Virus record (IMG/VR): IMGVR_UViG_3300023178_000092 | Location: 1 to 44,404 of that record | Direction: 5' to 3' (one strand) | Length of the DNA stretch: 44,404 nucleotides | DNA from: a virus | Part shown: positions 35,061 through 39,557 of the stretch, piece by piece | How positions within the stretch are numbered: position 1 is the stretch's first letter | Layout of the letters: the number at the start of each line of letters is the position of its first letter | Notes under the pieces: model-generated | Told to the model about the DNA's origin: nothing | Seen by the model: only the letters and a program-made list of their open reading frames with translations | Databases searched by the model: none | Program-made: the position numbers and the translations under genes

Positions 35061-35115
35061 TGTCAAGCACTTTCTTGTACAAGGTACGAATTAGTTGGTA
35101 CGTGGGGTATAGTAC

Positions 35116-35246
35116 AAGTGTTATCACTTAGAGTGTATTAACAAAGAAAATTTAGTAGAGACTAACTTATGTACAGTTAAGTGTTATAGTTATAGAGTTT
35201 TTTAAGAATTATTATATAGACATTTAAGTGTATCACTTTAAGTGTG
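35116..35246. promoter_or_regulatory. Cluster of AAGTG/CACTT dyads downstream of the late promoter
   Basis: Two clean dyads, AAGTG-TTAT-CACTT (35116-35129) and AAGTG-TAT-CACTT (35226-35238), plus single half-sites at 35179-35184 and 35240-35246, lie between the late promoter P1 and the first late gene. The second dyad sits right at the expected start point of P1 (about 15-30 nt from the -10). This is the classic place for operators of a repressor. The first dyad with its flank (AAGTGTTATCACTTAGA) recurs with one change at 37075-37091. Confidence 0.6.
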
Positions 35247-35260
35247 TTTAGTTATACATA

Positions 35261-35289
35261 ATTATACCAGATTTTCTATTGGCTGTCAA
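35261..35289 (-). promoter_or_regulatory. Perfect consensus late promoter P1
   Basis: Reading the minus strand: TTGACA (35289-35284), a 17-bp spacer ending CTGG, TATAAT (35266-35261). Both boxes match the bacterial sigma70 consensus fully and the spacer gives an extended -10 (TGG before TATAAT). The bases after it (TATG/TATAG) are shared with P2. It should start the 35-kb late operon near 35254. Such a strong host-type promoter needs repression early, which fits the dyads just downstream. Confidence 0.88.
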
Positions 35290-35337: not shown

Positions 35338-35715
35338 TGCCTATTTTTTAGGCAGTTGCACAATACTTGTGCATATAGGTAGTGTCAGTTGTTCCTGTGG
35401 TTAACACTTAATTTTCCTAATCTGTGTATTTCTCTGTATATATATCCACGCTACCCCCCGGTGGCCCCCGCCTACCCCGCCTTACCATGCCTGTATGTGC
35501 CGCATTATGCCTCTGCATAGCGTATGGTAAGAGCCAACTTAGTCCAACCTTGGACTTAAAGCATTGAAAATGCTGTATGTTTTCCAAAACAGTCAGTTGT
35601 AAACAACTGTTATGGTATCAGTTGCCATCCAAAGGATGACTTGTGAAGTCAGGTTTTACAGAATTGCAACGAAGTTGAATTGCTGATGCATCTATTTTGT
35701 ATAGCCATAGCTATA
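35338..35715. repeat. Series of short hairpins in the control region
   Basis: At least nine short perfect inverted repeats follow each other. They are TGCCTA/TAGGCA (35338-35354), TGCACAA/TTGTGCA (35357-35373), CTTACCAT/ATGGTAAG (35481-35488 with 35524-35531), AGTCCAA/TTGGACT (35541-35556), GCATT/AATGC (35561-35573), CAGTTGT/ACAACTG (35594-35609), CATCC/GGATG (35626-35638), GACTT/AAGTC (35638-35650) and TATAGC/GCTATA (35700-35715). A bulged AATTGCAAC/GTTGAATT lies at about 35662-35681. No reading frame with a ribosome site is present. Between 35440 and 35485 the plus strand is C-rich. A replication origin, a structured leader RNA or an integrase-linked site are open options. Confidence 0.6.
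35541..35556. repeat. 16-bp palindrome copy 1 (variant centre CC)
   Basis: AGTCCAA-CC-TTGGACT. The arms are identical to the six other copies and only the two central bases differ. It lies in the control region, about 365 bp ahead of the first plus-strand gene, and is not followed by a gene start. Confidence 0.8.
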
Positions 35716-35919: not shown

Positions 35920-36513
35920 ATGACGAAGAAAATTGCTAACGTAGTTAAGGCTGAAATCAACACATTGGAATCAGAGGGCAAAGCCCTTGCATCAATTTGG
36001 CGTGGCATTGCCAAAGGCAACTTTGAAAATGCTACCAAGGCTGATGGCTTCGACACACGGCTTGGAAAGCTGATGCAGAAGCTGAAAGCCGAAACTGATG
36101 CTGGTCGTATTTCTTCAGCTAGGCTGAAGGATTGCAACATTCACAACATTGACAAGCGGCGCAGAGCAGAGGCTCTGTGGTTTGTCGAGAATGAGACTGA
36201 GTGCCGTGAGTTTATGAAAGCCTCAAAGAAAGGCTTCAAGAGCCTCACAGCTTTACAAGCTGCAATGAAAAAAGCCAGCAAAGCTGAACAGTCAACTGAG
36301 CCAGAGGCTGACACACCTATTGAGCCAAAGGCTGACGACAAGTCCAATGTTGGACTAGACAAGCCAACAAAGTTGGATGCCGATACGATTGCAGAACAAG
36401 TCTTTGACTTGCTCGACACAAATGGTGTAAGCCTCAAAGAATTTGAGGATGCATTCGCCGCAATCAAAGCCATCCTTCAGGATGAAGACACAAACAAAAA
36501 GGCAGTAGCGTAA
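35920..36513 (+). CDS. First plus-strand gene, helical Lys/Ala/Glu-rich protein (197 aa)
   Basis: A helical N-terminal domain (residues 1-110: KKIANVVKAEINTLESEGKA, LGKLMQKLKAETDAGRISS, NIHNIDKRRRAEALWFVENE) is followed by a Glu/Pro/Ala-rich linker (120-145) and a short C-terminal helical domain. Palindrome copy 2 is embedded in the linker and reads as SNVGL. ACGGAG lies 7-8 nt before the ATG. Basic helices and a leading position suggest a DNA-binding early regulator, but no motif proves this. Confidence 0.78.
   Translation: MTKKIANVVKAEINTLESEGKALASIWRGIAKGNFENATKADGFDTRLGKLMQKLKAETDAGRISSARLKDCNIHNIDKRRRAEALWFVENETECREFMKASKKGFKSLTALQAAMKKASKAEQSTEPEADTPIEPKADDKSNVGLDKPTKLDADTIAEQVFDLLDTNGVSLKEFEDAFAAIKAILQDEDTNKKAVA
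36341..36356. repeat. 16-bp palindrome copy 2 (inside a gene)
   Basis: AGTCCAA-TG-TTGGACT inside the linker-coding part of the first plus-strand gene. It is read as S-N-V-G-L, the same frame as copy 7. The linker is a permissive place for a DNA or RNA element. No gene starts right after it. Confidence 0.8.
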
Positions 36514-36534: not shown

Positions 36535-36550
36535 AGTCCAATGTTGGACT
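36535..36550. repeat. 16-bp palindrome copy 3
   Basis: AGTCCAA-TG-TTGGACT, 22 bp after the stop of the first gene. It is followed by AACCAAT, then ACGGAGT and the ATG of the small membrane protein 21 bp further on. Confidence 0.85.
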
Positions 36551-36808: not shown

Positions 36809-37040
36809 ATTCATCACACCAATGGGTAAACACAAGCTGGTGCGTTCAAGCTGGGCGGCTATGGATAGCAAGGCTTTCAGCCGTAGCTATGAGCCTGAGA
36901 CACGGCCTGAGTTTCGGTGCTTTGTGACTGGTCAAGCTGATGCCGCCAATCGTGCTTATAAAGCACAGATTGAGAGCGAGGCCAAACAGCAAAGATTGCT
37001 GGCCTTGAAAGCTAGGATGCTTGCCAAGGGTTTACTTTAG
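36798..37040 (+). CDS. Small basic protein (80 aa)
   Basis: The protein is basic and rich in Ala, Arg and Lys (ARKFITPMGKHKLVRSSWAA, then FRCFVTGQADAANRAYKAQI and a C-terminal helix LLALKARMLAKGLL). GAGG precedes the ATG, which lies 11 nt inside the membrane-protein gene. There is no signal or membrane part. Nucleic-acid binding is likely from charge alone. It is followed directly by the hairpin element at 37051. Confidence 0.7.
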   Translation: MARKFITPMGKHKLVRSSWAAMDSKAFSRSYEPETRPEFRCFVTGQADAANRAYKAQIESEAKQQRLLALKARMLAKGLL

Positions 37041-37050
37041 TGTAACTTAC

Positions 37051-37086
37051 GTAATAACACTTGAAACTTTGTGAAAGTGTTATTAC
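37051..37086 (+). promoter_or_regulatory. Long hairpin element, copy A
   Basis: GTAATAACACTT (37051-37062) and AAGTGTTATTAC (37075-37086) form a perfect 12-bp stem around the 12-nt loop GAAACTTTGTGA. No U-tract follows, so a simple terminator is unlikely. The right arm and flank (AAGTGTTATTACTTAGA) match the dyad at 35116-35132 in 16 of 17 positions. TTGAAA in the loop region and TACACT at 37092-37097 could also be promoter boxes. Palindrome copy 4 follows 16 bp later. Confidence 0.65.
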
Positions 37087-37102
37087 TTAGATACACTTAC
37101 CT

Positions 37103-37118
37103 AGTCCAATGTTGGACT
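37103..37118. repeat. 16-bp palindrome copy 4
   Basis: AGTCCAA-TG-TTGGACT, between hairpin element A and the gene at 37139. It is followed by TAACATCA, then ACGGAGT and the ATG 20 bp downstream. Confidence 0.87.
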
Positions 37119-37138
37119 TAACATCAACGGAGTTGAAA

Positions 37139-37450
37139 ATGAAACAGATTGTTATTGCTGAATGGACTTCATGTGGCTGGCAAGCCATACCTGAAATTGC
37201 TTGGACGCAAGAGGATGCTCGTGCCATCATTGAGCCAAAGGCTACTGCCGCATGGGAAGATGCTGTTGGCTGGAAGTGGGAGTCTCGTGCCACGATTGTG
37301 GACACATGGGATTCCGATTGGTGTGACTGCGCTGTCATCAACCGCGAAACAGGCGAAGTGTGGGCGGCGTGGCAATGCTGTGAAATTGATGTGCCAAACA
37401 TTGATGAGGAAGAGGACTTGCGTAGATGCAGTTTGACTGATAACATTTAG
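37139..37450 (+). CDS. Trp/Cys-rich small acidic protein (103 aa)
   Basis: The protein is rich in Trp and Asp (IVIAEWTSCGWQAIPEIAWT, then AAWEDAVGWKWES, VDTWDSDWCDCAVI and EVWAAWQCCEID), with at least nine Trp and five Cys in 103 residues. ACGGAGTTGAAA gives the start at 37139, ignoring an upstream in-frame TTG. A compact beta-type fold or a metal site is possible. I recognise no family. Its stop codon overlaps palindrome copy 5. Confidence 0.72.
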   Translation: MKQIVIAEWTSCGWQAIPEIAWTQEDARAIIEPKATAAWEDAVGWKWESRATIVDTWDSDWCDCAVINRETGEVWAAWQCCEIDVPNIDEEEDLRRCSLTDNI

Positions 37451-37464
37451 TCCAATGTTGGACT
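37449..37464. repeat. 16-bp palindrome copy 5
   Basis: AGTCCAA-TG-TTGGACT. Its first two bases are part of the TAG stop of the preceding gene. TAACAA, ACGGAGT and an ATG follow within 18 bp. Confidence 0.87.
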
Positions 37465-37482
37465 TAACAAACGGAGTTTGAT

Positions 37483-37689
37483 ATGCAAACCGGAAAGATT
37501 GTTAAACTACAAGGCAAGACACGCCATGGCAAAAACCGTGTGAATGAACACGGCGAGTTTTGGCAGGTGCTTGACCTACCCAAGCGTATACCTGAATGGC
37601 CTACTGGCACATTCCGCTTGCAGTCTCTTGAGACTGGTGATATACGTTGGCTATCGGATGACTTTACTGCAACCATTGTTACGGAGTAA
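37483..37689 (+). CDS. Small SH3-like beta protein (68 aa)
   Basis: MQTGKIVKLQGKTRHGKNRV, FWQVLDLP and TGTFRLQSLETGDIRWLSDD suggest a small five-stranded barrel (SH3-like); this is inference from strand pattern. ACGGAGTTTGAT precedes the ATG. The stop is 4 nt before the next ATG, which has its own ACGGAGT. Such proteins can be host-protein inhibitors in early phage regions, but no target can be named. Confidence 0.7.
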   Translation: MQTGKIVKLQGKTRHGKNRVNEHGEFWQVLDLPKRIPEWPTGTFRLQSLETGDIRWLSDDFTATIVTE

Positions 37690-37693
37690 CACT

Positions 37694-38380
37694 ATGACTT
37701 ATCAAGTACACTTGACCCCGAAATCCAAGAATGAAAAGACTGGTGATATTCCTGTGTCTACTACAGAGGCACAGACTTGCCCACCAGCTTGCCCGTTCAA
37801 CAACGCAAACGAGGGCGGTTGCTACGCAGAATCCGGCCCTCTCAAGATGCACTGGATGAAAGTATCCGACAAGGCTCGTGGTGACACTTGGCCTGTGTTT
37901 CTTGACAAGATTGCCAACTTGAAAGCTGACACATTGTGGCGGCACAATCAGGCTGGTGACTTGCCCGGACGCAATGACCAGCTTGATGCCAAGGCTTGTA
38001 TGGAATTGACATCAGCCAATGACGGTAAGCGTGGCTTCACATATACACACTACCCTGTGCTTGACAGCAAGCGTAACCGTATGATTGTGACACACATGAA
38101 TCGTTCTGGCTTCACTGTCAATCTGTCTGCCAATAACTTGGCTCATGCTGACCAGCTTGCTGACTTGGATGCTGGCCCTGTGGCTACAGTATTGCCTATT
38201 GACCAGACAAAAAACACTACCACGCCACAAGGTCGCAAGGTAGTTGTGTGTCCGGCGGCTGTGCGTGATGATGTATCTTGTGCCACTTGCCAGCTTTGTC
38301 AAAGACAACGTGACTTTATCGTTGGCTTTCCGGCACATGGTACTAGCAAGAAGAAAGCTGATGCCGTGGCAAATGGCTAA
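37694..38380 (+). CDS. Cys-motif protein of unknown function (228 aa)
   Basis: The sequence has two Cys clusters: TCPPACPFNNANEGGCYAES near residues 29-48, and VCPAAVRDDVSCATCQLCQ near 190-208, so about seven cysteines suited to an iron-sulfur or zinc site. Between them lie HWMKVSDKARGDTWPVFLDK, LWRHNQAGDLPGRND and FTYTHYPVLDSKRNRMIVTH. I recall this protein type in many phages, always uncharacterised. ACGGAGTAACACT sets the start at 37694; a longer in-frame reading upstream overlaps the 68-aa gene and is rejected. Redox or nucleic-acid-related enzyme activity is speculation. Confidence 0.83.
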   Translation: MTYQVHLTPKSKNEKTGDIPVSTTEAQTCPPACPFNNANEGGCYAESGPLKMHWMKVSDKARGDTWPVFLDKIANLKADTLWRHNQAGDLPGRNDQLDAKACMELTSANDGKRGFTYTHYPVLDSKRNRMIVTHMNRSGFTVNLSANNLAHADQLADLDAGPVATVLPIDQTKNTTTPQGRKVVVCPAAVRDDVSCATCQLCQRQRDFIVGFPAHGTSKKKADAVANG

Positions 38381-38401
38381 ACCTCTTATGTATATCTTTG
38401 T

Positions 38402-38438
38402 GTATAAAACACTTGAAACTTTGTGAAAGTGTTTTTAC
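38402..38438 (+). promoter_or_regulatory. Long hairpin element, copy B
   Basis: AAAACACTT (38406-38414) and AAGTGTTTT (38427-38435) form a 9-bp stem around the same 12-nt loop as copy A, GAAACTTTGTGA. The flank continues TTACACTTAGATATACT, giving a possible -10 (TATACT, 38446-38451). It is placed between a gene end and palindrome copy 6, exactly as copy A. Stem ends differ while loop and core are kept, as expected for a recognised element. Confidence 0.65.
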
Positions 38439-38456
38439 ACTTAGATATACTAGATA

Positions 38457-38472
38457 AGTCCAATGTTGGACT
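38457..38472. repeat. 16-bp palindrome copy 6
   Basis: AGTCCAA-TG-TTGGACT, 19 bp after hairpin element B. It is followed at once by AACGGAG and the ATG of the 46-aa gene 16 bp downstream. Confidence 0.87.
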
Positions 38473-38487
38473 AACGGAGCATTTACA

Positions 38488-38628
38488 ATGCGTATTAGAC
38501 CTATCAATCCTGTGGCGAAGGCAGTGGCACAGTCACGCCGCAGGGCAACCGTTGTGCCAGACAAAACTAAATACAACCGTAAAAAGGATAAAGACCGTGA
38601 AAATAAAACACGAAAAACTAATGACTGA
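38488..38628 (+). CDS. Small very basic protein (46 aa)
   Basis: MRIRPINPVAKAVAQSRRRA is followed by a Lys/Arg/Asp/Asn tail (NRKKDKDRENKTRK). ACGGAG precedes the ATG and palindrome copy 6 lies ahead. The first 30 residues resemble small proteins I recall from other phages. The charge suggests binding to nucleic acid. It ends inside the next gene, overlapping it by 32 nt. Confidence 0.65.
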   Translation: MRIRPINPVAKAVAQSRRRATVVPDKTKYNRKKDKDRENKTRKTND

Positions 38629-38773: not shown

Positions 38774-39149
38774 CATAGATGTTAAAACTAAAATAATGTA
38801 TACTTGTGAATTAACGTACTATGGTGCTGGCTGGCTTTATACGGATGAATTACACGAGGAATGGCACAGGCTTTTTCATTTGGAACTTGAAACTATAGCC
38901 AAATACTTTGGCGTAGTTTTTCAAGGCCAAGGACTATCGTGGGAGACTGATTATGTAGCAATCTTTGAAAGCACCGATAATGATAAACTTGTCAAATTGA
39001 AAAAATGGTTTGACGGTGACTGGTCTTCCGAACCCACACTTAAACATGAACTAGATGAAATCGCAACTGCAATGCGAGTTGCGGAGAAACTAGATGAAGA
39101 TGGATGCATCCGTGAATATCACCCAATGCAGGAGAACAAAAATGTTTAG
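38766..39149 (+). CDS. Unknown acidic protein (127 aa)
   Basis: The protein opens with MLNIDVKTKIMYTCELTYYG. It then has WHRLFHLELETIAKYFGVVF, DYVAIFESTDNDKLVKLKKW and a C-terminal helical, acidic part. An alpha/beta fold with a ferredoxin-like strand order is possible. GGAG is placed 7 nt before the ATG, and the start overlaps the previous stop. It overlaps the next gene by 8 nt. It was not recognised. Confidence 0.7.
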   Translation: MLNIDVKTKIMYTCELTYYGAGWLYTDELHEEWHRLFHLELETIAKYFGVVFQGQGLSWETDYVAIFESTDNDKLVKLKKWFDGDWSSEPTLKHELDEIATAMRVAEKLDEDGCIREYHPMQENKNV

Positions 39150-39534
39150 CATGAAATATAGACTTTACTGGAACCTACACAAAAAGAAGTGGTCACTGCA
39201 AGACCGCCAGACTGGACGTGTTCAACAGCACGTCACTGCATTCACAATGTATGACGCAAAGTTCGTGGTGCGTCCTGCTGGACAAGCCAAGGTGCGGCGT
39301 GAAGGCAAGAAGAATGTTCATGCCTTTGCCGTTGGCACTGGCGGCTTGCGTGATGGCATTGCTACCTGCTTGTCAGGTAGGCCAGTCACATACAACCCTT
39401 ATGTGAATGATACGTTTGTATTCGCTGACACTGGTGAGCCAGTGACTGAGGTGCAGGCTATCTCTGTGTACACTGAGAATGGTAGACCCAAAGTGTATGC
39501 AATCCCTAAGTCCAATGTTGGACTAACCAACTAA
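39142..39534 (+). CDS. Unknown protein with SNVGL palindrome tail (130 aa)
   Basis: MFSMKYRLYWNLHKKKWSLQ is followed by VQQHVTAFTMYDAKFVVRPA and QAKVRREGKKNVHAFAVGTG, a beta-rich basic pattern I recall from other phage early regions. GGAG lies 7 nt before the ATG at 39142; in-frame codons further upstream overlap the previous gene and are rejected. Its last codons contain palindrome copy 7 (SNVGL), so gene end and control site are merged. The function is unknown. Confidence 0.74.
   Translation: MFSMKYRLYWNLHKKKWSLQDRQTGRVQQHVTAFTMYDAKFVVRPAGQAKVRREGKKNVHAFAVGTGGLRDGIATCLSGRPVTYNPYVNDTFVFADTGEPVTEVQAISVYTENGRPKVYAIPKSNVGLTN
39509..39524. repeat. 16-bp palindrome copy 7
   Basis: AGTCCAA-TG-TTGGACT within the last codons of the 130-aa gene, reading SNVGL. 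The next gene follows 33 bp later, with AACCAACTAACCAACC and AAGGAG between. Nearly the same CCAACCAACTAA string precedes the first plus-strand gene. Confidence 0.85.
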
Positions 39535-39557
39535 CCAACCGAAAAGGAGATTTTATC

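Follow-up and report, generated by a model that had tools for sequence, protein, structure and literature searches.

In the early operons of phages lambda and HK022, the boxB/nut and put elements are sense-strand RNA hairpins with a conserved tip and a variable stem. The hairpin promoters of phage N4 carry a G/A-bearing tip on one strand and have a stem of 5-7 bp with a 3-nt loop. The RNase III site R1.1 of phage T7 is a 60-nt element with an asymmetric 4/5-nt internal loop, located between genes 1.0 and 1.1 (PMC6121014). Phages of the HMO-2011 type form a dominant group in marine waters (PMC9038755). Despite this dominance, little is known about the control of their early genes, and the words promoter, terminator, repressor and hairpin were all absent in a term search of the text of this comparative study.

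The window analysed here is a whole IMG/VR virus record of 44,404 b, which was identified as an HMO-2011-type marine phage from its protein matches. Its proteins match those of HMO-2011 (SAR116 host) and of CRP-1 and CRP-345 (roseobacter hosts), with 82-87% identity for the terminase. Late genes run leftward, early genes run rightward from ~35.9 kb, and a tyrosine-integrase-like gene is located at the right end. On the minus strand at 35261-35289, the leftward operon has a promoter that matches the extended sigma-70 consensus perfectly (TTGACA-17-TATAAT with TG), so host RNA polymerase is presumably used. The divergent intergenic region also contains, at 35115-35245, several AAGTG..CACTT inverted repeats (e.g. 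AAGTGTATCACTT).

Two hairpins reported in an earlier note on this DNA were both recovered from the early region, each with the palindrome described there. The 12-nt apical loop GAAACTTTGTGA is identical in both copies and occurs exactly at only these two places in the window. The hairpins are larger than previously noted and consist of an outer helix, an internal loop, a main stem of 12-14 bp and an apical loop, as follows:

37039..37097, plus strand: hairpin copy 1, whole element (from the sequence, RNAfold and the covariance model)
37039-37044 with 37092-37097: outer helix of copy 1, AGUGUA/UACACU, plus CU/AG at 37046-37047 with 37089-37090
37051-37062 with 37075-37086: main stem of copy 1, 12 bp; internal loop UAC/UU
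37063-37074: apical loop of copy 1, GAA-AC-UUU-GU-GA
37127..37141, plus strand: gene following copy 1, Shine-Dalgarno-like ACGGAG and start codon ATG (37139)
38390..38450, plus strand: hairpin copy 2, whole element (from the sequence, RNAfold and the covariance model)
38390-38397 with 38443-38450: outer helix of copy 2, GUAUAUCU/AGAUAUAC; internal loop UU/UU
38400-38404 and 38406-38414, bulged U38405, with 38427-38440: main stem of copy 2
38415-38426: apical loop of copy 2
38474..38490, plus strand: DUF7230-like gene following copy 2, ACGGAG and start codon ATG (38488)

The stem lengths given before, 12 and 9 bp, hold for copy 1 only; copy 2 pairs over 14 bp with one bulged U (GUGUA-U-AAAACACUU / AAGUGUUUU-UACAC). 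The outer helix in both copies emerges from unguided RNAfold of the region. Predicted energies are -20.0 and -24.5 kcal/mol for copies 1 and 2 (z = -4.4 and -7.1), and none of 200 shuffles was as stable. Both copies are also recovered, on the plus strand, by a covariance model from which the window sequences had been left out (E = 6.6e-7 and 4.5e-4). No U-tract follows either hairpin, in agreement with the earlier description.

A total of 203 distinct hairpin copies, chosen by pairing, were retrieved from ~280 related phage loci. Two main tips were found, class I with GA(W)ACTTTAGTGA and class II with GAGTATCTTACGA, together with rarer ones. The major tips conform to GA-(N)-RY-N3-4-RY-GA, in which the inner 2-3 bases pair and switch in matched pairs (AC/GU, GU/AC, AU/AU and GC/GC). 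The constancy of the loop thus applies to the two window copies, and the loops of relatives vary under constraint. Stems range from 9 to 20 bp and loops from 11 to 14 nt among relatives, and the class II hairpins are built of 11 + 8 bp around a defect. The internal loop is unconserved and appears as 3x2, 2x2, an A.G or U.G mismatch, or a bulge. The covariance model misses class II, so the two classes were grouped by their shared architecture and by contigs that carry both tips (e.g. L122, L130 and L176), on which they look like versions of one element.

Hairpin-bearing genomes carry one to five copies, placed in one stretch of the early region and in one direction. HMO-2011 has three copies, at 5-41, at ~1204-1243 and around a loop at 54112, and CRP-1 and CRP-345 each have one; the window-excluded covariance model also recovers copies in these three phages. 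The same model found none in CRP-2, -9, -13, phiM6 and CHOED, as scanned, and by the same criterion CRP-2, -3, -9, -13, -207 and -603 have no copy in the records scanned, some of them in part. With no copy seen in many HMO-2011-type phages, the element is dispensable. The third HMO-2011 hairpin (L295) is unannotated, lies 5' of the first early gene and has a different stem, GGGATAACCCCTT/AAGGGGATTATCCC; no counterpart of its tip was seen in the window. The class II genomes G001-G004 have no matches to the terminase and most structural proteins of HMO-2011, but they share its replication genes, including the family A DNA polymerase, which in HMO-2011 carries a DnaJ-like insert. This combination in G001-G004 (L311-L322) represents large-scale module exchange. 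Exact-pattern searches of cell genomes gave no match for class II and one for class I, in a Clostridia MAG, so that, within the reach of exact patterns, the element is one carried by phages. The Clostridia match (L349, 13-33) is a class I core near the end of the stretch, where the full stem is not judgeable.

The stems covary strongly, which is the opposite of the outcome named beforehand as refuting a functional element. In class II, 16 of 22 pairs change on both sides, with 212 double-changed cells against 66 in shuffled alignments and a covariation score of 0.553 against 0.175. In class I, two-sided changes affect 13 of 14 pairs, with a score of 0.752 against 0.171. These counts come from gapless alignments (A3 and A4), both drawn from pairing-selected copies, and lie well above shuffled and slid controls; the MAFFT alignments A1 and A2 were out of register and were excluded. 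Because the 203 copies had been picked by pairing, a selection-free test was added, in which the tip alone was searched in loci fetched only by protein similarity. All 39 distinct matches are in gene sense and lie between complementary arms, with at least 6 contiguous pairs in 38 of them and one shifted by a base. Of 60 class I copies, 37 also have an outer helix of 7 bp or more, compared with ~5.5 expected with swapped partners, and the exchanges in this helix include TATATCT/AGATATA, TATACCT/AGGTATA, AGTAGTTCT/AGAACTACT, GTATATCT/AGATATAC and GTATACCT/AGGTATAC. Near the tip, a loop-only recomputation gave no true G-U pair in ~450 cells, and the few non-Watson-Crick cells are shifted-register rows or single mismatches. 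G-U accounts for 4 of 473 cells in the class II main stem, in a set from which copies with two or more G-U pairs had been filtered, and a U.G wobble occurs in the tip helix in 6 of 43 class II rows. The same pattern is seen in A3 columns 12-20 with 34-42 and in the window main stems, where G-U is nearly nil though A-U/G-C exchanges are many.

The hairpins occupy a constant place between genes. They lie outside ORFs of 100 aa or more in 177 of 203 copies (background 41%), start a median of 6 nt past the stop codon of the upstream ORF and end a median of 37 nt ahead of a start codon with a ribosome site. Of the 35 distinct regions upstream of DUF7230 homologues, 20 contain a hairpin, which in 19 cases is placed between about -69 and -81; a palindrome lies at about -24 to -36 in most. 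The hairpin is kept at this orthologous place although the DUF7230 proteins diverge by up to ~40%, down to ~57% identity. Rfam 15 gave no match at the gathering score for the window and 14 hairpin-bearing loci, and a permissive search gave chance-level matches only. No intercistronic hairpin of this kind was found in a literature search. With its covarying stems, constrained loop, gene sense and intercistronic position, the structured RNA element proposed earlier, protein-bound or processed by an RNase, is well supported. The hairpin is a real structured element of marine phages, apparently undescribed, and very probably belongs to a conserved family read in the mRNA sense. An Rfam-absent RNA family with ~200 distinct copies and clear covariation provides a testable handle on mRNA processing in SAR116 and roseobacter phages.

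The palindrome AGTCCAATGTTGGACT that follows both hairpins is found exactly at six positions in the window, with a variant at a seventh (14 strand matches, compared with 0.42 expected):

35541..35556: variant form AGTCCAACCTTGGACT, in the intergenic (promoter) region between divergent genes
36341..36356: coding site in the first early gene (35920-36513), translated in frame as S-N-V-G within a linker modelled at low confidence
36535..36550: between genes
37103..37118: AGTCCAATGTTGGACT after hairpin copy 1, presumed dsDNA operator
37449..37464: intergenic, sharing bases with the TAG stop codon of ORF 37139-37450
38457..38472: after hairpin copy 2
39509..39524: within the 3' end of ORF 39094-39534, in the S-N-V-G frame

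Most window palindromes thus stand without a hairpin. Among the 109 class I hairpins with distinct downstream DNA, 53 are followed by a palindrome within 130 nt (0.04 expected each) and 56 are not; the most frequent spacing, exactly 17 nt past the main stem, is seen in 24 of the 53. The composite is therefore real but optional: the two-part cassette described earlier exists for about half of class I, and its parts are separable. The palindrome is confined to one sub-lineage, where its sites are found both within genes and between them, as well as in the divergent promoter region. It is near-uniform within a genome and differs between genomes (AGTCCG(ACAG)CGGACT in HMO-2011, TGTCCAACGTTGGACA in CRP phages and GGTCCGACGTTGGACC in G006), and its 6-bp arms are perfectly symmetric in the window and HMO-2011. 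Among the records checked, it is present in genomes with the first early protein and absent in those without. These patterns have the look of operators that co-evolve with a phage regulator.

Coding palindromes, at window positions 36341-36356 and 39509-39524 and in CRP-345 (L296) at 383 and 2131, were all in one frame where checked (S-N/D-V/I-G or S-D-S-G). Among the homologues of the first early protein, 63 after removal of redundancy, most have the palindrome in frame, and AlphaFold leaves the palindrome-coding stretch of the window protein unstructured. This reads as DNA sites housed in a tolerant protein linker that is predicted to be disordered. The first early protein was considered as a candidate palindrome-binding repressor, but its AlphaFold model (pLDDT 79) has no confident match among solved structures (Foldseek best E 1.2), and its best VIA hit, to a transcriptional repressor, has Z 3.7, below the meaningful level. 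Judged from its sequence patterns, the palindrome is most likely a separate dsDNA operator of a putative phage regulator, standing ~17 nt after the main stem where both parts are present. In that case the hairpin would probably work as RNA and the palindrome as DNA. A working analogy, with no family assignment, is provided by the stoperators of cluster A mycobacteriophages: these too are short sites that recur within genes and between them with a genome-specific sequence, and both lineages include integrase-bearing members. Unlike the asymmetric cluster A stoperators (PMC9283540), the palindrome is a symmetric site of 14-16 bp, has 5-8 copies mostly in the early region, and has at most a candidate repressor. 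An operator-like palindrome offers a handle on lysogeny control.

For the hairpin itself, our leading though still tentative explanation, drawn by analogy with the RNase III sites of T7, is an intercistronic mRNA processing or stability hairpin cut by a host enzyme. In HMO-2011-like phages and some relatives, the early polycistronic mRNA would fold into these hairpins right after the stop codon of one gene and right before the ribosome site of the next. Host RNase III, or another double-strand-reading host factor, would recognise the hairpin and cut close to its internal loop, so that the mRNA of the upstream gene would keep a protective 3' hairpin and that of the downstream gene would gain a new 5' end. 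Like T7 sites, the elements are intercistronic, lie between presumably co-transcribed genes of an early polycistronic region, measure ~60 nt (60-70) and occur in several copies per genome. They also share two helices around an internal loop or bulge, the upper one of 11-14 bp, with about two helix turns in total (12 + 8 and 14 + 8 bp in the window), and have no terminator tail. An ordinary intrinsic terminator or a chance inverted repeat, which the stable hairpin immediately 3' of stop codons might suggest, is extremely improbable: a U-rich tail follows only 5 of 185 copies and is missing in the other 180, and the constrained tip, the strong covariation and the z values given above contradict such an origin. 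A phage-encoded RNase III or dsRBD was searched for in 11 hairpin-bearing records with good positive controls, and none was found, so the enzyme would be the host's. Unlike T7 RNase III sites, the family conserves its tip (GA-RY-N3-4-RY-GA) and not its internal loop, and its stems are nearly free of G-U. T7 RNase III sites are not, to our knowledge, marked by a conserved tip. Such a tip suggests a specific reader and counts against RNase III, as does the near-absence of G-U, which an RNA helix does not usually require and which is hard to account for if the element acts only as RNA. In the processing scheme, the tip would serve as a cap for recognition, with GA..GA around a helix of 2-3 bp that perhaps forms tandem sheared G.A pairs. 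The hairpin may instead be bound and not cut, with a phage or host protein reading the tip on nascent or finished mRNA for antitermination, as a functional counterpart of nut/put, or for translation control of the downstream gene. We consider this rather unlikely, although the tip is the part most conserved and the stem is free to vary, a pattern known from RNA hairpins that bind proteins, and the one to five early-region copies nearly all lie close before a start codon. Beyond the shared replication genes, no protein family was found that fully tracks the hairpins, with presence in both class I and class II genomes and absence from hairpin-less ones; the nearest trans factor by gene co-occurrence, DUF932, is missing in G003 and G004. 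The likeness to boxB/nut and put lies in the sense-strand position within early operons, the conserved tip and the variable stem. The elements differ in having a stem of 11-20 bp plus an outer helix (boxB, ~5 bp) and up to five copies in one region, and no N-like or Nun-like partner was identified. A broader claim is possible but doubtful: that this is a new family of protein-recognised, GA-capped RNA hairpins for modular control between early genes in several marine phage groups, which in the HMO-2011 sub-lineage is paired with a downstream DNA operator in a ~85-nt cassette for RNA- and DNA-level control of the next gene.

The element could also act as DNA, with a single-stranded or cruciform hairpin serving a replication, packaging or recombination protein and its intercistronic position merely reflecting tolerance. 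The essentially complete Watson-Crick pairing near the tip is as expected for DNA, and the near-absence of G-U leaves some weight on a DNA-level role; the clustering of copies in one direction per genome could likewise equal one replication direction. Such a role is nevertheless unlikely given the U.G wobble in the class II tip helix, the bulges and mismatches tolerated at set places, and the sense-orientation sites between stops and ribosome sites, which are the prediction of an mRNA element; we infer that RNA is the acting molecule. The stems differ between copies of one genome, which makes a sequence-specific dsDNA operator role of the hairpin unlikely as well. A promoter, with TTGAAA or GTGAAA and TACACT/TATACT as -35 and -10 and the inverted repeat or palindrome as operator, is very improbable. 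Copy 2 does fit two weak sigma-70-like pairs (9/12, 17-nt spacers), but such pairs are near chance in relatives (class I, 32 of 110 against 20 expected; class II, 8 of 92 against 12.8), and no conserved -35/-10 pair was found there. The stretch TTAGATA(C/T)ACT, which the earlier note had read as containing a -10 box, is the 3' strand of the outer helix plus internal-loop bases, and the proposed -10 itself is a helix strand that covaries with its upstream partner. A T7-type RNA polymerase (PF00940) was detected in none of 8 records, a search in which the positive control was also silent. N4-type hairpin promoters resemble the element in having a hairpin with a G/A-bearing tip on one strand, but stems of 9-20 bp and loops of 11-14 nt do not fit the dimensions of N4, and the downstream sequence is here accounted for as a helix strand; the window has no giant ORF of the size of the N4 virion polymerase.

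Two further sequence types were observed in these phages. Stretches of the AACCAACC type recur just 5' of ribosome sites in several genes, at window positions 39525-39545 and in many loci. A related-looking hairpin type, CTCTC..TGAGAG with a tip that has no 5' GA, precedes the class I hairpin by roughly 1 kb in several loci (L022 2960, L029 2639, L030 2895, L032 2647, L094 504 and L104 2167).
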